Below are positions 7,562 through 56,673 of a DNA stretch of 64,000 nucleotides, in pieces. The stretch comes from Mucilaginibacter arboris (GTDB lineage Bacteria > Bacteroidota > Bacteroidia > Sphingobacteriales > Sphingobacteriaceae): positions 186,001 through 250,000 of the forward strand of contig NZ_WPIK01000002.1 of NCBI RefSeq assembly GCF_009754915.1. The letters run 5' to 3'. The stretch's first letter is position 1, and each line of letters opens with the position of its first letter. Made by a program: the position numbers and the translations under genes. A model generated the notes under the pieces. The model had not been told where the DNA came from. It saw only the letters and a program-made list of their open reading frames with translations, and did no database searches.

Positions 7562-7601
7562 CCTGGTAAAAGAAGCATGCTTCTTTTACCAGGCTTTTTT
7601 T
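7562..7601 (+). terminator. Intrinsic terminator made of a perfect 32-bp palindrome
   Basis: 7562-7593 is a perfect palindrome, CCTGGTAAAAGAAGC/ATGC-centred, giving a stem of at least 14 bp, followed by C and seven T (7595-7601). It starts 5 bp after the GH125 stop and should end the GH2-GH125 transcript. The stem sequence GGTAAAAGAAGCAT is the same as the inner arm of the repeat family found from 13 kb onward, but with the two halves joined back to back. Confidence 0.85.
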
Positions 7602-12568: not shown

Positions 12569-13162
12569 ATGAGTACTGACAGGCAAAACGATGAGATTTT
12601 ATTTGACCTTTTAAAACAAGGCCATATAGCTGCTTATAAAGAGATTTATGACCGTTATAAATCTATACTCTATATTCATGCCTATAAAATGCTGCAGGAT
12701 GAAGAAGAGGCGAAAGATGTGGTTCAGGAGGTTTTCATCATATTATGGAATAAACGCACAGAAATCAATTTAAAAACTTTTTTAGCGGCTTATTTATATA
12801 AAGCAGTAAAAAACCGCATCTTAGACCTGATTGCCAATAAAAAGGTGAGGTTAAAATATGAAGGTTCTTTGCAAAGCTTTCTGTTGCAGGGAGAGTGCTT
12901 AACTGATTATAATGTTAGGGAAAAAGAATTGCGTATCATCATTGAAAGAGAAATATCAAGCCTGCCAGCTAAAATGCGTACCGTATTTGAGCTAAGCAGA
13001 AAAGAACATCTGCCTTACAAACAGATAGCCCAAAGGTTAAATATTTCTGATAAAACGGTTAAAAAGCAAGTGAACAATGCCATAAAAATACTCCGGCTTA
13101 AATTAGGTTCACTTTTTATTCTGCTCCCCTTTATAGAAAAGTTGTTTAAACTTTTTAGCTGA
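12569..13162 (+). CDS. ECF RNA polymerase sigma factor
   Basis: A 197-residue extracytoplasmic-function sigma factor. Region 2 is visible in AYKEIYDRYKSILYIHAYKM and EEAKDVVQEVFIILWNKR, and region 4 in LPAKMRTVFELSRKEHLPYKQIAQ and NISDKTVKKQVNNAIKILR. It should activate the SusC/SusD locus starting at 15604 once released by the FecR-like anti-sigma at 14302. Unusually, 1.1 kb of repeats separates it from that FecR. Its last codons (KLFKLFS) are encoded by GTTGTTTAAACTTTTT (13141-13156), identical to the outer arm of the repeat family, so the C-terminus may have been rewritten by an insertion. Confidence 0.92.
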   Translation: MSTDRQNDEILFDLLKQGHIAAYKEIYDRYKSILYIHAYKMLQDEEEAKDVVQEVFIILWNKRTEINLKTFLAAYLYKAVKNRILDLIANKKVRLKYEGSLQSFLLQGECLTDYNVREKELRIIIEREISSLPAKMRTVFELSRKEHLPYKQIAQRLNISDKTVKKQVNNAIKILRLKLGSLFILLPFIEKLFKLFS

Positions 13163-13171
13163 AATCTTCTG

Positions 13172-13282
13172 ATGCTTCTTTTAGCACTATAAAATTAGCC
13201 TCGCCCTGCCCTCTCCAAAGGAGAGGGAGCTGCCGGTACAAAAGTTAATGGCTTGCAGATTTTTAGGTGATAAAAGAAGCAT
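13172..13282. repeat. Paired inverted-repeat element, type A core (copy 1)
   Basis: An element of 111 bp bounded by ATGCTTCTTTTA and the complementary TTTTTAGGTGATAAAAG-AAGCAT arm. The core holds the hairpin CCTCTCCAAAGGAGAGG and a GTACCGGCAG-type stretch. Its core is nearly identical to the element at 29292-29404 but in opposite orientation. Its left outer arm (GTTGTTTAAACTTTTT, 13141) overlaps the end of the sigma factor gene. Confidence 0.85.
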
Positions 13283-13365
13283 ATCAAACATCCTGAACAA
13301 AATTTAAACAAGCTTTTAATTAAGAAGTTGTTTAAACTTTTTTCCGGCCCTCTTTTTTAGGGTTG

Positions 13366-13564
13366 ATGCTTCTTTTATCACCTAAAAAATGTTAACCATT
13401 GTTTTTTTGATCGATTAAATGTAAACACCAATTTTTACCCGTTAAATCACTAAAGACCTATAAGGTTTTGAAAACCTTATAGGTCTTTAGTGATTTTGTG
13501 TTTGTTTTCCGGTACCAGTTCAACACGCTATAGATCTTCTATTTTTAGGTGATAAAAGAAGCAT
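13366..13564. repeat. Paired inverted-repeat element, type B core with nested palindrome
   Basis: An element of 199 bp with full 23-bp arms at 13366-13388 and 13542-13564. The type B core begins TGTTAACCATTGTTTTTTTG and contains AACACCAATTTTTACCCG. A 49-bp palindrome (13446-13494) is inserted in it. The outer arm GTTGTTTAAACTTTTT lies at 13327. Confidence 0.87.
13446..13494. repeat. Perfect palindrome with one-base centre, nested in a repeat
   Basis: Two 24-bp arms, ATCACTAAAGACCTATAAGG then TTTT and its complement, meet at a single G (13470). Shorter versions of the same palindrome occur at 51230-51260 and 56394-56430, each also inside a type B element. This points to a separate small mobile hairpin that targets or hitchhikes on the larger repeat. 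Confidence 0.85.
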
Positions 13565-13651
13565 ATCAAATATTTTGAACAAAATTTAAACAAGCTTTTA
13601 ATTTATGAAGTTGTTTAAACTTTTTTTTCTTGCCCTCTTTTTTTTGGGTCG

Positions 13652-13674
13652 ATGCTTCTTTTATCACCTAAAAA
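13652..13674. repeat. Solitary left arm of the repeat family
   Basis: A complete 23-bp arm (ATGCTTCTTTTATCACC plus TAAAAA) preceded by the outer arm GTTGTTTAAACTTTTTTTT (from 13610). No matching right arm follows; an unrelated inverted repeat starts about 70 bp downstream. It looks like a half element or one split by an insertion. Confidence 0.75.
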
Positions 13675-13746
13675 TGTTAGGGCCTGTTTAAATTTGATCC
13701 TTTGGTTTGATGCCCTTTGATGCCCTCATTTTTTAAATGTTTTTGG

Positions 13747-13953
13747 TTTTTTGGCTAAAGCCTGTTGCCGGTTATCCTTTATCCACGGCCTGAAGGCCGT
13801 GGCAACTGCATTTGGACCTGACTGGGCGTTCTGTCCGTACAAGGCCAATTCAGCATTAGTAAATAAAAATCTTTCGTAAAACCAAGCTTTAAAATTGCCA
13901 CGGCCTTTAGGCCGTGGGTTGCATAAACACAGGCAGCGGCTTTAGCCAAAAAA
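13747..13953. repeat. 207-bp inverted-repeat element with two GC-rich hairpins
   Basis: The ends are exact complements: TTTTTTGGCTAAAGCC (13747-13762) and GGCTTTAGCCAAAAAA (13938-13953). Just inside them are two 20-bp hairpins, CCACGGCCTGAAGGCCGTGG (13783-13802) and CCACGGCCTTTAGGCCGTGG (13898-13917), themselves arranged as inverted copies. It has no credible ORF. This is a different family from the ATGCTTC repeats and appears inserted into the array of those repeats; the form is MITE- or BIME-like. Confidence 0.75.
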
Positions 13954-14024
13954 GGGACACACAAAAATTACGGAATATATTTTAAACAAGCCCTGAATGA
14001 TTAGTTTTTGATTTTTTAGGTTTG

Positions 14025-14047
14025 ATGCTTCTTTTATCACCTGAAAA
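14025..14047. repeat. Solitary left arm of the repeat family
   Basis: ATGCTTCTTTTATCACC followed by TGAAAA. It lies 55 bp before the next full element and has no partner. Its left flank includes TTTAAACAAGCCC, the outer-arm motif. Confidence 0.65.
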
Positions 14048-14079
14048 TGCTGGTCATCGGGTTTTGATTTTTTGTGTTG

Positions 14080-14166
14080 ATGCTTCTTTTATCACCTAAA
14101 AATGTTAACCATGTTTTTTTGATTGATTAAATGCAAACACCAATTTTTACCCGGTAAAAGAAGCAT
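14080..14166. repeat. Paired inverted-repeat element, type B core without palindrome
   Basis: A compact 87-bp copy with left arm 14080-14102 and right arm ending GGTAAAAGAAGCAT at 14166. The core matches the 13366 and 56343 copies but lacks their nested palindrome, so it serves as the empty-site reference. GTTTAAACAAC at 14209-14219 marks the right outer arm, 83 bp before the FecR start. Confidence 0.85.
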
Positions 14167-14301
14167 CAGTATATCCAAGGATCTGTACAAATTTAAACGG
14201 GCCCTAAAGTTTAAACAACTTCTTATATAAAACTTATTTTTTCTACTACCAGCATCTCTTTTGTCCGTCATATCCCGAAAAGGTATCAATATCTTTTCTT
14301 T

Positions 14302-25589: not shown

Positions 25590-25660
25590 TTTAATTAACC
25601 CAGGTTTTTGGGTTAGGTACTTGTTTAAACTTTTCCCGATCAACAACAATCAATTAGTTA

Positions 25661-25752
25661 ATGCTTCTTTTACCGGGTAAAACTGGTGTTGCATTTATTT
25701 AAACAGATCAAAAAGAAACGATGCTTAAATTTTTAGGTGATAAAAGAAGCAT
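25661..25752. repeat. Paired inverted-repeat element, type B core reversed
   Basis: Left arm ATGCTTCTTTTACCGGGTAA (25661) and a perfect right arm 25730-25752. The core ACTGGTGTTGCATTTATTT is the reverse complement of the type B core. GTTTAAACAACTTC at 25783 is the outer arm. The remainder of the gap 25590-25920 is A/T-rich with no other supportable feature. Confidence 0.8.
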
Positions 25753-25920
25753 CAGCCTAAAAAAAGAAAACCAGGAAAAAAGTTTAAACAACTTCATAGC
25801 TTACTGAAAGTAAAAAATAGAGATGTTAACCAATTATTACCCTTACTTAAACTAATTATTACCCTCTCCAATGGGTTTATCGATCTTAATTTCGTTTGAG
25901 TTTATACTATAAGACAGGTA

Positions 25921-29291: not shown

Positions 29292-29404
29292 ATGCTTCTT
29301 TTATCACCTAAAAATCTGCAAGCCATTAACTTTTGTACCGGCAGCTCCCTCTCCTCTGGAGAGGGCGGGGGGTGAGGCTAATTTTATAGTGATAAAAGAA
29401 GCAT
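29292..29404. repeat. Paired inverted-repeat element, type A core
   Basis: A 113-bp copy whose core (CTGCAAGCCATTAAC..GTACCGGCAGCTCC.. hairpin CTCTCCTCTGGAGAG ..GTGAGGC) is almost the exact reverse complement of 13172-13282. The right arm ends 29404 and the outer arm ATATAAATTTAAACAACTTC follows at 29419. It lies 150 bp upstream of the HTCS start, in its probable promoter region. The rest of 29116-29554 shows nothing else. Confidence 0.87.
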
Positions 29405-29554
29405 CAGGTTTTTTTCTGATATAAATTTAAACAACTTCTAATATAGAAATCAATTGTGGGTGATAAATGAAAATTCTTTTATGCCATTATGTACATAACA
29501 GTATAACTGTTAACTTTAGGGTTATAAGGATTTATAGTTGCCTGTTGTTAGTAA

Positions 29555-33661: not shown

Positions 33662-33884
33662 CTTCTTAAAGTCTAGTAAACCCTGCTGCCCGTTAACAAT
33701 AAAATAACGCTGCCTACAGGTGCAATTTATTTGTACCGATTTTTCACCCTAAAAAAGTTATTTTTTCGCCCCTTAAATTAAGGATGCAATCTCATATTCG
33801 CCTTTGCTACCGCAATTTAACGAGTACTATAAGAACCTGAATAAGTTTCTATCAGATCCTTCGATATTCTCAGGATTGGTCCTG

Positions 33885-43300: not shown

Positions 43301-43370
43301 TGAAAGAGGTGTTATTTACAGGGCAGCTAAGAATTAAGGGCTTGTTTAAATTTTATTCAGAATAGTTAGC

Positions 43371-43483
43371 ATGCTTCTTTTATCGCACAAAAAACTAAAT
43401 GGCTATTTGCTTTTTGTATTGGCAGCCCCCTCTCCTTGGGAGAGGGCGGGGTGAGGCTAATTTTATAGGTATAAAAGAAGCAT
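43371..43483. repeat. Paired inverted-repeat element, type A core
   Basis: A 113-bp copy with hairpin CCTCTCCTTGGGAGAGG and GGCGGGGTGAGGCTAATTTT in the core. Outer arms are complete: CTTGTTTAAATTTTATTCAG at 43341 and GATTTAAACAGGATC at 43521-43535. The whole 190-bp unit ends about 10 bp before the lyase start codon at 43544. Confidence 0.87.
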
Positions 43484-43543
43484 CAGCACCAATCCTGAGA
43501 ATATCGAAGGATCTGATGCAGATTTAAACAGGATCTACTAACA

Positions 43544-46367: not shown

Positions 46368-46484
46368 ATGCTTCTTTTAGCACCTAAAAATCATTAAACC
46401 TCATATGATTTTGCATGTGTACCTCCCTCTCCTGTGGAGAGGGCCGGGGTGAGGCTTAACAATTTATAGTGATAAAAGAAGCAT
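46368..46484. repeat. Paired inverted-repeat element, type A core
   Basis: A 117-bp copy with the hairpin CCCTCTCCTGTGGAGAGGG and CCGGGGTGAGGC in the core. It begins 16 bp after one stop codon and ends 45 bp before the GH105 start, so it occupies nearly the whole gap. Confidence 0.86.
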
Positions 46485-46529
46485 GTCCCCATATCCTTGG
46501 CCATTAAACTGGCTTTAATTAGCTTTCAG

Positions 46530-51035: not shown

Positions 51036-51060
51036 ATGCTTCTTTTAGCACTATAAAATT
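51036..51060. repeat. Solitary left arm
   Basis: ATGCTTCTTTTAGCACTATA plus AAATT, with the same left flank (TATATCACAAAAAACCTA) as the element at 34044, but no right arm. It lies in the 465-bp gap 50958-51422, which is otherwise filled by the element described next. Confidence 0.72.
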
Positions 51061-51119
51061 GGGGTTAAAACTTAGTACAATTAAAAAATACTATTGCCTA
51101 TAGATTTTTATATGATGAG

Positions 51120-51331
51120 GTTGTTTAAACTTTTTGGTACCCATTTAAATTTGGTCCTTCGGCATGCCCAGGTTTGGTGCCCATGCTTCTTTTATCGGGT
51201 AAAATTGGTGTTTACATTTAATCACTTAAGACCTATAAGGTTTTCAAAACCTTATAGGTCAGTTGGTGATTTTTAGGTGATAAAAGAAGCATCGGTCCCA
51301 AAAAAGAGGGCCGAAAAAAAGTTTAAACAAC
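51120..51331. repeat. Complete composite element with outer arms and nested palindrome
   Basis: The clearest full-length copy, about 212 bp. The outer arms GTTGTTTAAAC (51120) and GTTTAAACAAC (51321-51331) are exact complements. The inner arms are 51183-51199 (ATGCTTCTTTTATCGGG) and 51270-51292. The reversed type B core holds the palindrome GACCTATAAGGTTTTC-centred at 51230-51260. The left flank module 51120-51182 is the reverse complement of 56472-56533. Confidence 0.87.
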
Positions 51332-51334
51332 TTA

Positions 51335-51348
51335 GATAAAAGAAGCAT
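51335..51348. repeat. Truncated right arm
   Basis: GATAAAAGAAGCAT immediately after the composite element, followed by ATCAAATACTTCGAACAG, a flank also seen after the elements at 13172 and 13366. It is probably the remnant of an older copy interrupted by the 51120-51331 element. Confidence 0.6.
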
Positions 51349-51422
51349 ATCAAATACTTCGAACAGAATCTAAAAAGTTTTAGAAGATAAGCACACAAAT
51401 AATACGTTAAAGACATAGTAGA

Positions 51423-52898
51423 ATGAAACTGAGAAATATATCTGCGATTATTTTTACACTAACTGTTATCGTAACCATAGCCGCGTTCGTCAATCCTAAA
51501 AAGAAGAAAGTTGTGGCCGAAAAGAAACATCCCAACATATTGATCATCCTGGTCGACCAGTTTCGCGGGCAGGCATTGGGATTTGAGGGGAAAGAACCGG
51601 TGATAACGCCAAATTTAGATCTGCTTGCCAAAAATAGTTATGTCGGGTTGCAAATGATAGCCAATTACCCGGTTTGTTCTCCCTCCAGGGCGATGCTGAT
51701 GACAGGGAAGTATCCGCTTAAAAACCACGTTTACGGTAACGTAAATTCTAATACGGCCCCTTATGGCGTTGAACTTCCTGCCGGTATCACTTGCTGGTCC
51801 GACGTATTAAAGGCCAATGGTTACGATAATGGTTATATCGGCAAATGGCATCTTGATTCGCCACACAAACCCTATATCCCCACTTATAATAACGAAGGCG
51901 CGGTGGCCTGGAATGAATGGACCCCGCCCGACCGCAGGCATGGTTTTGATTATTGGTATGCCTACGGCACTTATGACCATCACCTAAAACCCATGTATTG
52001 GGACACCAAGGCCAGCCGCGATAATTTTCATTACGAAAACGAGTGGGGGCCGCAGCACGAAGCAACCAAAGCACTTGAGTTTTTAAGAAATGATAACAAT
52101 AGCTATCGTGATAAAAATAAACCTTTTGCTTTAGTGGTATCCATGAACCCGCCACATTCGGATTACGAAAGTGTTCCGCAGGAATATGTTGATCTATACA
52201 AGAATGTTCCTATGGCAACCTTATTAAAAGACCCTAATATTCCGCCTGCAGGAACTCCTATGGGTGATGAATACCGCAAAAACGTAAAATACTATTATGC
52301 CTGTATCACTGGGGTTGACACACAGGCTGGCCGCATTTTGAATTATCTGAAACAAAGCAAACTCGACGACAATACCATCGTAATATTTATGGCCGACCAT
52401 GGCAATTGCCTTGGCAAGCATGATGAAATTTCAAAAAACAATATCTATGAAGAGTCATTACGGATCCCATTTATCGTTCAATGGAAAGGACACATCAAGC
52501 CTAAAATGGATAACGTTGCGTTGATGAATGTTCCGGATATTTACCCTACTTTGTTAGGTTTAGCTGGGTTAAATAACAAAATCCCCGGTGATCTGGATGG
52601 CAGCAGCATGGCATCCTATATCACTAATGGTCAGGGTAAACTGGGTAACGAACAATATCTTTTAGGTGCAGTGGTCCCGCCCAATACCAATACGGGTTTT
52701 AGGGGGATAAGAACCTTAAAATATAAGTTAGCTTATGTTAGAAAAAATAAGGTGCTGACCTCCTATCTGTTCGACTTAAAAAATGACCCATTTGAGTTAA
52801 ATAATATTTATGCTGAGAACGACAGCATCGTTAAAAGGTTAAGGCCATCTTTGCAAGAATGGTTAAAAAAAACCAATGATAAGTTTTTGCTGCCCTGA
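51423..52898 (+). CDS. Type I sulfatase (Cys-type)
   Basis: A 491-residue sulfatase with an N-terminal signal or anchor helix (about 7-25) followed by a Lys-rich stretch. The metal-binding start is ILIILVDQFRGQALG, with Gln in place of the second Asp seen in the other sulfatases here. The formylglycine Cys is C85 in VCSPSRAMLMTGKYP. A second metal block is IFMADHGNCLGKHDE, where DHGN replaces DNGG. These differences suggest another S1 subfamily and thus a different sulfate position. It ends 16 bp before the CBM9-like gene. Confidence 0.92.
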   Translation: MKLRNISAIIFTLTVIVTIAAFVNPKKKKVVAEKKHPNILIILVDQFRGQALGFEGKEPVITPNLDLLAKNSYVGLQMIANYPVCSPSRAMLMTGKYPLKNHVYGNVNSNTAPYGVELPAGITCWSDVLKANGYDNGYIGKWHLDSPHKPYIPTYNNEGAVAWNEWTPPDRRHGFDYWYAYGTYDHHLKPMYWDTKASRDNFHYENEWGPQHEATKALEFLRNDNNSYRDKNKPFALVVSMNPPHSDYESVPQEYVDLYKNVPMATLLKDPNIPPAGTPMGDEYRKNVKYYYACITGVDTQAGRILNYLKQSKLDDNTIVIFMADHGNCLGKHDEISKNNIYEESLRIPFIVQWKGHIKPKMDNVALMNVPDIYPTLLGLAGLNNKIPGDLDGSSMASYITNGQGKLGNEQYLLGAVVPPNTNTGFRGIRTLKYKLAYVRKNKVLTSYLFDLKNDPFELNNIYAENDSIVKRLRPSLQEWLKKTNDKFLLP

Positions 52899-52914
52899 TC
52901 CTTTTTCTTATCCA

Positions 52915-53583
52915 ATGAAACAACTAAAAATACCTTTTTTGTCATCGCTGAACACTGATTTCAGCTTGGATCACATCGATTTGCAGTTGAATAAATTACC
53001 ACCGCAAAGCCTTGATTATTTATTATGGAGCGAGGGTTCGTATAAACCTGAAGTTTGTTTCCGGATTGGCCACAACAATACTTGTATATTTTTAAAATTT
53101 ACCGTGATGGAAGATCACCTGCGGATGGTTTACAATCAAATCAACGATCCCGTTTACAAGGATAGTTGCGTGGAGTTTTTTATCGGCATCGAAAATGATA
53201 GTAATTATTATAACCTGGAATTTAATTGTGCGGGTACTTGTTCTGTTGGCTATGGCAGCAATAAATTTGATAGAAAAGAACTACCTTCTGATATTATTGC
53301 AAACATTGCAACACAAACTAAATTGTGGCGCTTAAATGGTGATTTTTCTTATTGCTGGGAAATAACGCTGATGATCCCGGTAACTATTTTCATCCATCAC
53401 CCGGATGTTAATTTGAATGGCCTTGACTGCCGTGTCAATTTTTTTAAATGCGGCGATGATTTACCGCAACCGCATTTTTTAGCCTGGAATAAAGTGGGAT
53501 CAGAAAAACCCAACTTTCATTTGTCCGAGTTTTTTGGAAAGGCCTTGTTTCTGGCAGAACAGGAAACGTTATTGCCAAATTAG
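52915..53583 (+). CDS. CBM9-like carbohydrate-binding protein without signal peptide
   Basis: A 222-residue protein resembling the 'carbohydrate-binding family 9-like' group (VEFFIGIENDSNYYNLEFNCAGTCSVGYG, WEITLMIP, CRVNFFKCGDD, HFLAWNKVG). An ATG at 52876 overlaps the sulfatase; ATG 52915 is chosen. No export signal is seen with either start, so it may be cytoplasmic, which is odd for a glycan-binding domain. It closes the HTCS-side operon. Its role is unknown. Confidence 0.75.
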   Translation: MKQLKIPFLSSLNTDFSLDHIDLQLNKLPPQSLDYLLWSEGSYKPEVCFRIGHNNTCIFLKFTVMEDHLRMVYNQINDPVYKDSCVEFFIGIENDSNYYNLEFNCAGTCSVGYGSNKFDRKELPSDIIANIATQTKLWRLNGDFSYCWEITLMIPVTIFIHHPDVNLNGLDCRVNFFKCGDDLPQPHFLAWNKVGSEKPNFHLSEFFGKALFLAEQETLLPN

Positions 53584-53669
53584 TCTGCCTGTAAAGTATC
53601 GCCATAAAATGATTTGGTACAAGGATATTTCTGACTTAACTGTTTAAGTTTATCTCGGAAAAAATGCTG

Positions 53670-53757
53670 ATGCTTCTTTTAGCACTATAAAATCTGCATT
53701 TACTCTTTACTTTCAATACAAACAGCCTTGCCCATTTTTAGGTGATAAAAGAAGCAT
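53670..53757. repeat. Paired inverted-repeat element (88 bp)
   Basis: Left arm ATGCTTCTTTTAGCACTATA at 53670 and a near-perfect right arm ending 53757; short type A core (GCATTTACTCTTTAC..CAGCCTTGCCC). The rest of the 451-bp gap 53584-54034 upstream of the second sigma factor is A/T-rich with no other feature I can support. Confidence 0.84.
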
Positions 53758-54034
53758 CTCAAATTCGGACATGATTAAACCGGCTTTAAGCCTGGCTGTT
53801 AAATTCCTTATTAAAAGTATTAAAAATTAAATTTAAGTACTACTGCCGCCCTGGTTAACCGTCATTATTTTTTTAATAACGCCTAAATCTGAAGATGAAA
53901 ATATCAGTTGCATCATTTGCACAGGGTTAATTAAAAATGAAACGCCAGTTGGGTTACAATTAAATGAGGCGTTTTGATATTTTGACTATAGGTATTTAAC
54001 AAGCTGTATATGATTTAATATTAGCTGAATTTTG

Positions 54035-54598
54035 ATGACTGTACTGGATAAACGTACCGATATTGAATTAACGAAACTATTGAAGTCGGGGGACCATATT
54101 GCCTTTACAGAGCTTTACCATCGCTATTGGAAACTTTTATTAGGCATTGCATACCATTATACCAAAGACAAACCTGTGGCCGAAGAAGTTGTTCAGGAAG
54201 TGTTTGTGGGTATATGGAACCGAAGGGAACTGATAGAAATACAGTCTTTTAAAGCCTATATGGCCACGGCAGTTAAGTTTTCTGTTTTTAAATATATCCA
54301 CCGGGAAGCACACAGGAAATTATTGGCCGAAACGCAATATCAGCAGGAAACCGTTTCTATGGACGATAAACTGATCGAATCCCGTTTTTTGCAAGAATAC
54401 ATTAACGGAATTGTGGAACAGTTGCCCGACAAATGCAAACTGGTGTTCAAATACAGCAGGCAGCAAGGAAAAAGCACCTCCGAAATTGCCAGCCAGATGG
54501 GCATTGCCGAAAAAACAGTTGAAGCGCACCTTACCAAAGGGCTAAAAACACTTAAAGCGGCCCTTAAAAGTTCGGGCATCCTGTTCTTTGTGTTGTAG
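54035..54598 (+). CDS. ECF RNA polymerase sigma factor
   Basis: A 187-residue ECF sigma factor; ATG 54035 is preferred to the adjacent TTG. Region 2 spans AFTELYHRYWKLLLGIAYHY and PVAEEVVQEVFVGIWNRR; region 4 spans LPDKCKLVFKYSRQQGKSTS and MGIAEKTVEAHLTKGLKTLK. The probable partner anti-sigma is the FecR at 58283, but an inverted GH27 gene and a sulfatase lie between them. It should drive the STN-SusC/SusD pair starting at 59756. Confidence 0.92.
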   Translation: MTVLDKRTDIELTKLLKSGDHIAFTELYHRYWKLLLGIAYHYTKDKPVAEEVVQEVFVGIWNRRELIEIQSFKAYMATAVKFSVFKYIHREAHRKLLAETQYQQETVSMDDKLIESRFLQEYINGIVEQLPDKCKLVFKYSRQQGKSTSEIASQMGIAEKTVEAHLTKGLKTLKAALKSSGILFFVL

Positions 54599-54639
54599 TG
54601 CATCACCTTTACTATCTTCTCCCATAAACCTAAAATGCA

Positions 54640-54732
54640 ATGCTTCTTTTATCGGCAAAAAATCAGTGTTTAGATTGATAATTGATAAAAAAGCGTAAGG
54701 CCGCCTGTTTTTTTAGGTGATAAAAGAAGCAT
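54640..54732. repeat. Paired inverted-repeat element (93 bp)
   Basis: Left arm ATGCTTCTTTTATCGGC at 54640, perfect right arm 54710-54732. It lies between the convergent sigma factor (+) and GH27 (-) genes, so here it is in a 3' region for both. No other terminator is seen in 54599-54900. Confidence 0.83.
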
Positions 54733-54900
54733 GGAAGATAAGTAGGCAACGATTGCAGCAGCATTAAAAGTTGTTACTGCAAAGATGATATTACCCTTTG
54801 GTGCCAGGTTGATGTTACAAATAAAAACTAAAAGCAAAATCCGCCGGTGCGTGCCGGTTTTACTTCTAAAGTGATGGTAATTTTATCAATTTCTGGATGA

Positions 54901-56079
54901 TTAATCGGCTTTTAGAACAATGATGCCATGTTTAGGTAGCGTAAATTGTTTAATTCCCCCTGCCTTTCCAAGTTTTTTATGAAGCCACAGGTCTCTTAAT
55001 TTGCTTTTGGTACTAATACCTATTTTTTCGGCGTTAAAGTTAAAAATTACCTCTTTTTCGCCCCGGTTCATAATAGCGATAGCTTTTGATTTGCCATGAT
55101 CAGCGCCTAATGGCTTAACCCAAACTTCTATAGGCTTATCGGTTAAAACTTTGTAGGCTTGCTTAAAACCGGTATCCTGATTTAAGGCGATCAGCTCTTT
55201 ATTGGTCAAGATTTCAATGGTTTGTTTAGACATGCTACGCAAATCGTTGCCTGCCAGTAAGGGTGAATTTAACATGCACCACATAGAGAAATGCGTTTTA
55301 TCCTCATCATAGCTCATCCCTCTGCCTACCTGCAGCATATCCATATCATTGTAATGGCCGGGCGACGAATATTTCGCCAAATCAGTATCGATATCGATAA
55401 TTTTTAGAATGGATCCAAAATCAGCACTGATATCACCTGATATGCGCCATGAATCTGCTTTATTGATCACCCACTTTCCGGGAAACTGCCAGCGGCAAAC
55501 GTTAAAAACGATGTTGCTGTCGATACCCTTGACCGCGTTTATGATTGGCATATAAGTATTTTCCTCGTCCAGCTTCATCTTTTCTGCGCCGCACCAGTCC
55601 ACCTTCAAAAAATCGAACCCCCATTCTTTAAAGAATAGGTTACAATCTTGCGGAACATGACCATAAATACCGGAGCCTATGCCGTTTTTGTCCTTATCAT
55701 AAATGGAGCCGCAGGTATTTTTACCCGCATCGGTATAAATACCTGCTTTCAGCTTTTTGCTATGGATATAATCGACCAACAATTTCATACCTGATGGGAA
55801 TTTTGCTTTGTTTACAAACAGTTTTCCCGAAGCATCCCTGCCACCAAAATAGCCATCATCAATATTGATAAAACGATAGCCGGCTTTATATAATCCCGAA
55901 GCAATCATTGCGTCGGCTTGTTCACGTATCATTTTTTCATCGATATTGACACGGAAATTGTTCCAGCTGCTCCAACCCATGATCGGTGCTTTTTTCTGCT
56001 GTGCACACAAAAATGAGTTCGAAATGCACAATAAGATGAACAGTATTAATACCGACTTTAATGGAATGGCAAAATTCAT
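54901..56079 (-). CDS. GH27 alpha-galactosidase
   Basis: A 392-residue exported GH27 enzyme, the only - strand gene of the window. The signal peptide ends at FLCAQ. The barrel opens with APIMGWSSWNNFRVNIDE, and INIDDGYFGG follows. The nucleophile is D161 in FLKVDWCGA and the acid/base is D216 in WRISGDI. An all-beta C-terminal domain completes it. It cleaves terminal alpha-galactose, or alpha-GalNAc in some members. Its inverted orientation between the sigma factor and the rest of that locus suggests insertion or a local inversion. Repeat elements lie on both sides. Confidence 0.93.
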   Translation of the reverse strand: MNFAIPLKSVLILFILLCISNSFLCAQQKKAPIMGWSSWNNFRVNIDEKMIREQADAMIASGLYKAGYRFINIDDGYFGGRDASGKLFVNKAKFPSGMKLLVDYIHSKKLKAGIYTDAGKNTCGSIYDKDKNGIGSGIYGHVPQDCNLFFKEWGFDFLKVDWCGAEKMKLDEENTYMPIINAVKGIDSNIVFNVCRWQFPGKWVINKADSWRISGDISADFGSILKIIDIDTDLAKYSSPGHYNDMDMLQVGRGMSYDEDKTHFSMWCMLNSPLLAGNDLRSMSKQTIEILTNKELIALNQDTGFKQAYKVLTDKPIEVWVKPLGADHGKSKAIAIMNRGEKEVIFNFNAEKIGISTKSKLRDLWLHKKLGKAGGIKQFTLPKHGIIVLKAD

Positions 56080-56245
56080 AATTGGTTATTAAAGTTAAAT
56101 TTTTCAGTTTTCAAATATATAACCTTTAACCGATGGGCCACCTGTATAACCCTGCCATTTGAAATTACTTATTGCCCGTACAGGATAAGCTGTTAGGAAG
56201 AGAATATTTCCTTTCAGATCGCATCTTGACAAAAAATTATAACGA

Positions 56246-56533
56246 AGTTGTTTGAACTTTTTTTTCTGCTCCTCTTTTTTAGGGCCGATGCTTCTTTTAT
56301 CACCTAAAAATGTTGGTCCTTAGGTTTTGTTTTTATGGGCCGGTGCTTCTTTTATCACCTAAAAAATGTTGACCATTGTTTTTTTGATCCACTAAAGACC
56401 TATAAGGTTTTCAAAACCTTATAGGTCTTTGATTAAATGTAAACACCAATTTTATCCGGTAAAAGAAGCATGGGCACCAAACCTGGGCATGCTGGAGGAC
56501 CAAATTGAAATGGGTACCAAAAAGTTTAAACAA
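56246..56533. repeat. Composite repeat cluster: solitary arm plus full element
   Basis: Bounded by GTTGTTTGAACTTTTTTTT (56247) and AAAGTTTAAACAACC (to about 56533). It contains a solitary left arm (56288-56310), a full element (56343-56471, first base changed to G) with a type B core, and the nested palindrome 56394-56430. The remaining parts of the gap 56080-56673 are A/T-rich; 56536-56673 should hold the sulfatase promoter but no motif is certain. Confidence 0.84.
56394..56430. repeat. Nested 37-bp palindrome
   Basis: AAAGACCTATAAGGTTTT meets its complement at a single C (56412). It interrupts the type B core between TTTTTTTGATC and GATTAAATG, which are contiguous (TTTTTTTGATTGATTAAATG) in the element at 14080. 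Confidence 0.85.
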
Positions 56534-56673
56534 CCTCAACATCTGCTTAGCGTTTTGTCAAAAAAATAAAAAAATATTTAACCCGACTAAGGGTAAACCC
56601 TGCCTTTAGGGTACAATATGTCAATTGTGGTCAAAACACAATAACCTCAATTGAGAAGAAGCCTAAAAACAAC

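Follow-up and report, generated by a model that had tools for sequence, protein, structure and literature searches.

IS5-type MITEs in Mucilaginibacter arboris carry convergent pairs of a genus-specific motif that resembles a DNA uptake sequence

The repeated units described here are MITEs, non-autonomous members of the IS5 family whose insertion duplicated 3 bp of the target. Their inner arms are copies of a 12-bp motif, strongly over-represented and specific to the genus, that is followed by an A/T tract. The explanation that accounts for both, and that we consider probable, is that these IS5-type MITEs carry a motif that acts as DNA uptake sequences (DUS/USS) do. The units were found in a stretch of 64,000 nucleotides from Mucilaginibacter arboris, referred to throughout as the window, and were followed into the rest of the genome and into two sister species (G001 and G002).

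Structure of the elements

A preliminary description of this DNA had noted that the 63-bp left flank of the element at 51183 is the reverse complement of the right flank of the element at 56343, and this holds: 51120-51182 and the reverse complement of 56472-56534 are identical at 60 of 63 bases, where shuffled queries reach at most 31, and repeat search lengthens the match to 113 nt at 95% identity. It had further proposed a unit of about 190-290 bp bounded by GTTTAAAC, a sequence that occurs 14 times in the window vs 24 times in 359 kb of contig C1. The unit does extend to GTTTAAAC, but genomic copies are about 210-340 bp long and the family-1 edge sits 4 bp farther out, with GARG preceding TTGTTTAAAC. 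It is TTGTTTAAAC or its complement that marks the outer edge in copies A and B (Table 1) and in further copies, and both ends of copies A and B are GARGTTGTTTAAACTTTT, forming imperfect TIRs.

Exact 3-bp target-site duplications (TSDs) border both of these copies. The check for such duplications outside the family-1 edges, named in the preliminary description, was extended to 31 genomic copies, and the flanks of 24 match over exactly 3 bp where 3.6 are expected (mispaired rate 0.117); at k=4 or more there is no match. The suggestion that flank and core modules had been shuffled would fit insofar as copies differ and a flank can be common to otherwise different elements, but the main change is the gain or loss of motif-bearing internal stretches, which yields forms of 217, ~281 and ~331 bp. 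Column identity in the 31-copy alignment is 99.6% for the motif, 96.4% for the TIRs and 89.6% for the rest, such that the best-conserved part of the MITE is its convergent motif pairs.

A single edge across all copies had also been claimed, and this did not survive, as some paired-arm elements lack the GTTTAAAC edge and at least one further class of TIRs, resembling GGGCCTGTTTAAAT, is present. Likewise, 33843-33884 does mirror 43484-43525 (37/42 identical), but the pair belongs to other elements, whose ends are GGGCTTGTTTAAAT-like or degenerate rather than GTTTAAAC.

Table 1. Positions of MITEs, motif copies and related features in the window
Feature	Position	Strand	Evidence or remark
IS5-type MITE family 1, copy A, 218 bp	51117..51334	.	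TIR GAGGTTGTTTAAACTTTTTG / AAAAAAGTTTAAACAACTTA; exact 3-bp TSD
TSD GAT of copy A	51114-51116 + 51335-51337		exact 3 bp
Uptake-signal-like motif ATGCTTCTTTTA, copy A	51183..51194	+	motif match; invariant column block, 31-copy alignment
Central palindrome GACCTATAAGGTTTTCAAAACCTTATAGGTC, copy A	51230..51260	.	common to 13442-13485 and 56384-56427 (repeat family D16)
Uptake-signal-like motif, convergent partner, copy A	51281..51292	-	motif match; 31-copy alignment
Motif copy upstream of copy A	51036..51047	+	motif match
Further motif copy immediately outside copy A	51337..51348	-	motif match
IS5-type MITE family 1, copy B, 294 bp, orientation opposite to copy A	56244..56537	.	TIRs and exact 3-bp TSD
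TSD AAC of copy B	56241-56243 + 56538-56540		exact 3 bp
Uptake-signal-like motif, copy B	56288..56299	+	motif match
Second motif of copy B, GTGCTTCTTTTA, within extra internal stretch	56343..56354	+	repeat comparison
Central palindrome, copy B	56397..56427	.	repeat comparison
Motif, convergent partner, copy B	56460..56471	-	motif match
Family-1-like copy, decayed or short, 179 bp, without 3-bp TSD	25617..25795	.	
Motif pairs and ends of family-1 type, clustered; contains a nested element of ~314 bp at about 13680-13993	13138..14222	.	
Other paired-motif element, ends GGGCTTGTTTAAATTTT / CAGATTTAAACAGGATC	43338..43535	.	right flank 43484-43525 mirrors 33843-33884
Flank common to 43484-43525	33843..33884	.	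37/42
Head-to-head motif pair TAAAAGAAGCATGCTTCTTTTA, then T-run	7566..7589	.	terminator-like hairpin

IS5-family relatives and spread

The MITEs are 200-340 bp long and non-coding, with no transposase inside. They are classed as IS5-type because the two sister species possess IS5-family elements of ~930 bp with the same ends, and it is there that parents with the same 16-bp end were found; no intact IS5 parent element was found in the M. arboris genome itself. In G001:C174 and in G002:C6, GAGGTTGTTTAAACTT ends enclose IS5 transposases (DUF4096 and DDE_Tnp_1), and the G001 protein passes the cut-off for NF033580 transpos_IS5_3. An intact 3-bp TSD is missing from both of these sister-species copies, and the exact 11-bp motif core is absent from them. 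The MITEs are far more numerous in M. arboris than in its sisters: exact 16-bp MITE ends number 71 in this genome, 5 in G001, 0 in G002 and 0 in three other genera. For one related element (C1:74608-74761, TSD AAA), G002 has the empty site. A transposase of the IS5 type, like those found with these ends in the sister species, probably mobilises the MITEs in trans. With TIR ends as in an IS5-family transposase element, a 3-bp TSD and 200-340 bp of non-coding DNA, they resemble IS5-family MITEs whose parents are of the DUF4096 / transpos_IS5_3 type, but they differ in holding convergent pairs of the host's abundant motif, which are conserved better than the TIRs.

A genus-specific motif

The 23-bp inner arms had been described as internal to the unit, which they are, but they are not private to the element: they represent a genome-wide motif of more than 2,200 copies, mostly solitary and many within genes. 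Its core is ATGCTTCTTTTA-YC-N3-(A/T)5-6, and the 4.16-Mb genome contains 1139+1084 copies, vs 5+1 for the reversed control and about 200-fold above order-3 Markov expectation. It is equally common in both sister species and at background level in 22 other genomes and in the other Sphingobacteriaceae genera examined. The 14-mer dialect pattern occurs 2087, 2467 and 1616 times in the three genomes of the genus and 0-12 times in 58 other genomes of the family. An own-dialect search, thinly sampled with 20-kb pieces from 19 other genera, yielded no comparable 9-mer; its single outlier is probably due to tandem-type repeats.

The motif statistics were drawn from the 359-kb stretch of C1, from the window and from a sample of loci. 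Most copies on C1 are solitary, on both strands, and 90 of 189 lie inside ORFs, in several frames and with unrelated flanks; 38 of those 90 are in sense orientation, and the strand split in sampled contigs (99/90 and 65/66) shows no bias. The motif is about tenfold denser in intergenic DNA than in genes. In the window nearly all copies are in intergenic repeats, and the genes of this one region contain 2 coding copies where 15.6 are expected (P=2e-5). For 40-60 kb of the window, where copies A and B lie, the sister species yielded no orthologous region and hence no empty sites for these two copies; we infer from this that the region was recently acquired.

Conservation of the motif is strong. 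Positions +19/+20 are A/T in 97-100% of copies, even within genes and in all three species. Of the coding sites that could be aligned, 18/20 and 38/53 have the motif unchanged, vs 13% and 12.5% for background 11-mers, and the differences at orthologous sites in the sisters are mostly core substitutions, with few indels. The dialects ATGCTGTTTTTA, ATACTTCTTTTA and ATACTGTTTTTA are about 60-70x over expectation, most of the remaining single changes are almost absent, and switching between dialects shows a TC/GT dinucleotide dependence. At the protein level, the motif-encoded tripeptides KEA, LLL, KRS and ASF occur at about twice their usual frequency, and KEA is coded by AAAGAAGCA in 46/65 cases vs 7/38 elsewhere; part of the conservation in coding sequence could reflect the encoded amino acids.

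Relation to DNA uptake sequences

Over-representation, spread through coding sequence, conservation, dialects, the tripeptide shift and depletion from window genes together are what marks out a DNA uptake sequence. In the Haemophilus-type USS of Pasteurellaceae, an A/T tract lies downstream of the core. The motif shares with that USS the short core followed by such a tract, more than 1,000 copies on both strands including genes, strong conservation and dialect types. As a putative uptake sequence it differs in sequence (ATGCTTCTTTTA here vs AAGTGCGGT), phylum and the type IV pilus ATPase, none being found here. Neisseria, too, has small TIR-bounded MITEs within a genome rich in uptake sequences, the Correia elements, whose definition is not known to include an internal pair of uptake sequences. 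The DUS of Neisseria is unrelated in sequence and is recognised by ComP, a minor pilin of its type IV pili; no such system was identified here. The Neisseria DUS is similar in its dialects, conservation above its surroundings, inverted pairs that act as terminators, spacing of 1.5-2.3 kb and rarity in acquired genes (PMC2397512).

According to a 2025 paper, uptake sequences are known only in Neisseriaceae and Pasteurellaceae, both of them families of Proteobacteria. The known systems depend on type IV pili, whereas no PilB/T2SSE extension ATPase scores above cut-off in this genus. ComEC is present in the genome, in a neighbourhood of housekeeping genes only, with no recognisable uptake operon. 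We view the missing PilB/T2SSE as a gap and not a refutation, because Riemerella, also of the Bacteroidota, transforms with the help of ComEC, DprA and proteins of the outer membrane, and the screen matches listed include no gene for a type IV pilus. Riemerella columbina prefers its own DNA, though without a convincing motif (PMC7965970), and a literature search on the motif letters and on Bacteroidota uptake sequences returned nothing else of relevance.

In the mechanism envisioned, a putative cell-surface receptor would prefer motif-bearing DNA, and transformation followed by recombination would keep and spread the motif (molecular drive). MITEs with convergent motif pairs would gain by riding on transformation, and they would seed acquired regions, such as the window's polysaccharide-utilisation locus, with the tag. 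We regard as evenly balanced the fuller proposition that DNA uptake signals arose independently a third time here, and for the first time in Bacteroidota, in a system that apparently does without the extension ATPase of a type IV pilus, and that the MITEs, by carrying convergent signal pairs, spread by both transposition and transformation.

Alternative explanations

The motif might instead be the binding site of an intracellular DNA-organising or recombination protein (a nucleoid factor or a Chi-like hotspot) that is selected at thousands of sites, and its even genome-wide spread, conservation and A/T tract would also suit a DNA-bending protein. We consider this unlikely, given that the motif is depleted in window genes and that TC/GT dialect switching and restriction to one genus are more like uptake sequences; a Chi-like site in particular was rejected, as such sites would not be expected to lack strand and gene-orientation bias. 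A transcription or RNA element, such as a terminator or UTR signal with incidental copies in genes, would explain why certain head-to-head pairs fold into hairpins that have T-runs and why density is so much greater between genes. Terminator use is not exclusive to this explanation, however, because Neisseria DUS pairs serve the same purpose (PMC2397512), and most C1 copies are solitary, in either orientation to genes and in both senses within ORFs. An RNA family was rejected, there being no Rfam match at gathering score in the window, and the explanation as a whole appears quite improbable.

That all copies derive from transposition, whether as solo remnants or targets of MITEs or as REP/REPIN sequences spread by a Y1 transposase, is very improbable. 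The placement of window copies in intergenic repeats would fit, and, as in REP/REPIN systems with RAYT, the genome has Y1_Tnp genes (two in M. arboris) and short repeats in the thousands, a part of them arranged as inverted pairs. Against this, half of the C1 copies lie within ORFs, orthologous sister sites are mostly gapless and change mainly by core substitution, and the autonomous IS5 copies lack the exact motif; Y1_Tnp genes are equally frequent in genera that lack the motif, and a RAYT/REP origin was rejected on account of this independent distribution. Finally, one could suppose an ordinary MITE family and a genus-specific compositional oddity with no function. The MITE part is indeed ordinary, but the excess over the Markov expectation, the conservation against a 12-13% background and the fixed A/T tract render this scarcely credible.

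Significance

If the uptake-sequence reading is true, recognition of self-DNA has arisen three times or more and can do without type IV pili. A defined sequence of ~24 bp can now be tested for self-DNA preference in Bacteroidota, and MITEs loaded with such a signal would connect transposition with transformation.

Element anatomy and mobility

It had been claimed in the preliminary description that the outer flanks of these elements mirror one another, that the real unit is about 190-290 bp with the 23-bp arms internal, and that modules have been shuffled; this account of MITE anatomy is largely correct, and ordinary in kind. When 56472-56534 is reverse-complemented, it is identical to the 63-bp flank at 51120-51182 in 60 of 63 positions (best shuffled query, 31), and a repeat search lengthened the mirrored stretch between these family-1 (IS5-type) copies to 113 nt at 95%; 33843-33884 and 43484-43525 likewise agree at 37 of 42 positions. 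The proposed outer edge, TTGTTTAAAC, holds for the 51120/56472 pair and fails for 33843/43484.

With copy A as BLAST query, 135 matches were found in the window's own genome (G000); 37 neighbourhoods were retrieved, and spelling the end as GARGTTGTTTAAACTTTT made 31 delimitable. Target-site duplications, the check that had been proposed, were found outside these ends: flanks are identical over exactly 3 bases in 24 of the 31 (mispaired flanks, 11.7%), with no match of 4 or more bases in this set, and the MITEs have transposed with a 3-bp duplication. Most copies measure ~210-340 bp, longer forms carrying additional internal stretches, each with one more inner motif copy, and just inside the TIR the two ends are unlike (GGTACC at one, TTCTGGCC-like at the other). 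Since G000 has 71 copies of the exact 16-bp end, the sister species G001 has 5, and the sister G002 and three other genera have none, the family probably expanded recently in the G000 species.

Both sisters have IS5-family genes (DUF4096 + DDE_Tnp_1) bounded by GAGGTTGTTTAAACTT ends, in elements of 933 bp (G001, whose protein scores above the cut-off of NCBIfam transpos_IS5_3) and about 930 bp (G002, where a stop breaks the gene's start); neither retains an intact 3-bp duplication or contains an exact 11-bp inner motif copy. An IS5-type transposase such as these would move the family-1 MITEs. A G000 IS5 element with the related end GAAACTGTTTAAAT adjoins a family-1 MITE. At a composite site, a family-1 MITE that has lost one end is fused to an IS5 element whose frameshifted transposase is split into two ORFs; the flanking 15-bp duplication, TTACTTTTATATAAA, suggests a rearrangement between two adjacent insertions.

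Locations of repeats and related genes (window positions unless prefixed)
Feature	Location	Flanks
Copy A	51117-51334	GAT on each side
Copy B	56244-56537	AAC on each side
MITE/IS5 composite	G000:C3:132564-133730 (L114 1564-2730)	
154-bp element	C1:74608-74761	AAA on either side
Third repeat	13680-13993; L095 675-987; L111 470-796; L125 1297-1610; L029 12853-13168	
CCCTCTCC...GGAGAGGG modules	29347-29407; 43426-43486; 46427-46487; 13169-13232	
Y1 transposase genes (G000)	C56:196866-197207; C83:25658-25879	

A related 154-bp element has GGGCCTGTTTAA.. ends and a single motif pair; in G002 the site is empty, with one AAA. A third repeat type (about 314-327 bp, TTAGGGCCTGTTTAAA-like ends), mostly without the uptake-like motif, is at some sites inserted inside family-1 elements, and GC-rich CCCTCTCC...GGAGAGGG modules, common to different element types, lie between the motif pairs of several elements. 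Another genus of the family has dense GGCTTCGAC / CAGCCTGAC repeats (L065, G005:C7:60001-80000; 34-35 copies in 20 kb).

The inner arm as a genome-wide motif

The interest of the finding resides in the inner arm, not in MITE anatomy. TGCTTCTTTTA occurs 1139+1084 times in G000 (reversed control, 5+1), 1169+1175 times in G001 and 728+635 times in G002, and only at background level in 22 other genomes; a dialect-tolerant 14-mer is found 2087, 2467 and 1616 times in these three members of the genus, as against 0-12 times in each of 58 further genomes from the family. Spacing is about 2.3 kb, and the sampled contigs show no strand bias. A Sphingobacteriaceae MAG from lichen (Lobaria) likewise has the head-to-head motif pair. 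Among 2.9 million viral contigs one alone matched the extended motif exactly (IMGVR_UViG_3300034990_000013, L090, position 1651); the match may be coincidental, or the contig may belong to a phage of the genus.

In 359 kb of G000 contig C1, 90 of 189 copies fall within ORFs, on either strand and in several frames, never the frame that would place a stop codon in the gene. Flanks are unconserved outside about -2 to +23, and in genes and intergenic DNA of all three species alike about 90% of copies have G/C at position +12 and 94-100% have A/T at +18 to +20. Across MITE copies, column identity is 99.6% in the two cores, 96.4% in the TIRs and 89.6% elsewhere.

When C1 was aligned to syntenic sister DNA (about 80% identity), the core was unchanged at 18/20 coding and 7/12 intergenic sites in G001 and at 38/53 coding and 14/29 intergenic sites in G002, compared with 12.5-14.8% of background 11-mers; remaining sites mostly carry one or two substitutions, with few indels. 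The variant spectrum is a dialect pattern: ATGCTGTTTTTA, ATACTTCTTTTA and ATACTGTTTTTA are in excess, the TT form modestly so, the intermediate GC form is about as expected, and variants altered at positions 4, 5 or 8-11 are all but absent. The motif-encoded tripeptides KEA, LLL, KRS and ASF are about twice as common in C1 as in other-genera samples, KEA being spelled AAAGAAGCA in 46/65 cases versus 7/38.

The window is a polysaccharide-utilisation region (sulfatases, SusC/SusD, GH20, alpha-galactosidase), and for its 40-60 kb part the search of G001 and G002 found repeat matches only and no orthologous region. Its ORFs contain 2 copies of the motif against an expectation of 15.6 (P=2e-5), and its intergenic DNA is crowded with MITE-borne pairs.

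A possible uptake signal

This genus-specific pattern is well explained only by a sequence-biased process acting genome-wide. That process would be biased uptake of DNA with subsequent recombination. The two distinct Y1 transposases of G000 (by profile coverage, one IS200-like and one RAYT-like) were rejected as the motif's source because neither gene's distribution across genera follows it. Haemophilus USS have a core and A/T-tract layout, and the motif is arranged similarly. Neisseria DUS are reported to be conserved above their surroundings, to serve as terminators in inverted pairs, to lie about 1.5 kb apart and to be rare in acquired genes (PMC2397512); the properties of the motif match these, its own spacing of 2.3 kb included.

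ComEC is present, and no PilB-type ATPase matched above cut-off in the genus, while several relatives have one. Uptake without a pilus is plausible in Bacteroidota, given that Riemerella can be transformed, with ComEC, DprA, an HHH protein and outer-membrane proteins taking part (PMC8459023), and that R. columbina favours its own DNA (PMC7965970). The motif resembles DUS/USS and probably works likewise, which is not a claim of class membership. The arm is probably a self-recognition motif of DUS/USS type, with the MITEs as its carriers, in a phylum where none has so far been known.
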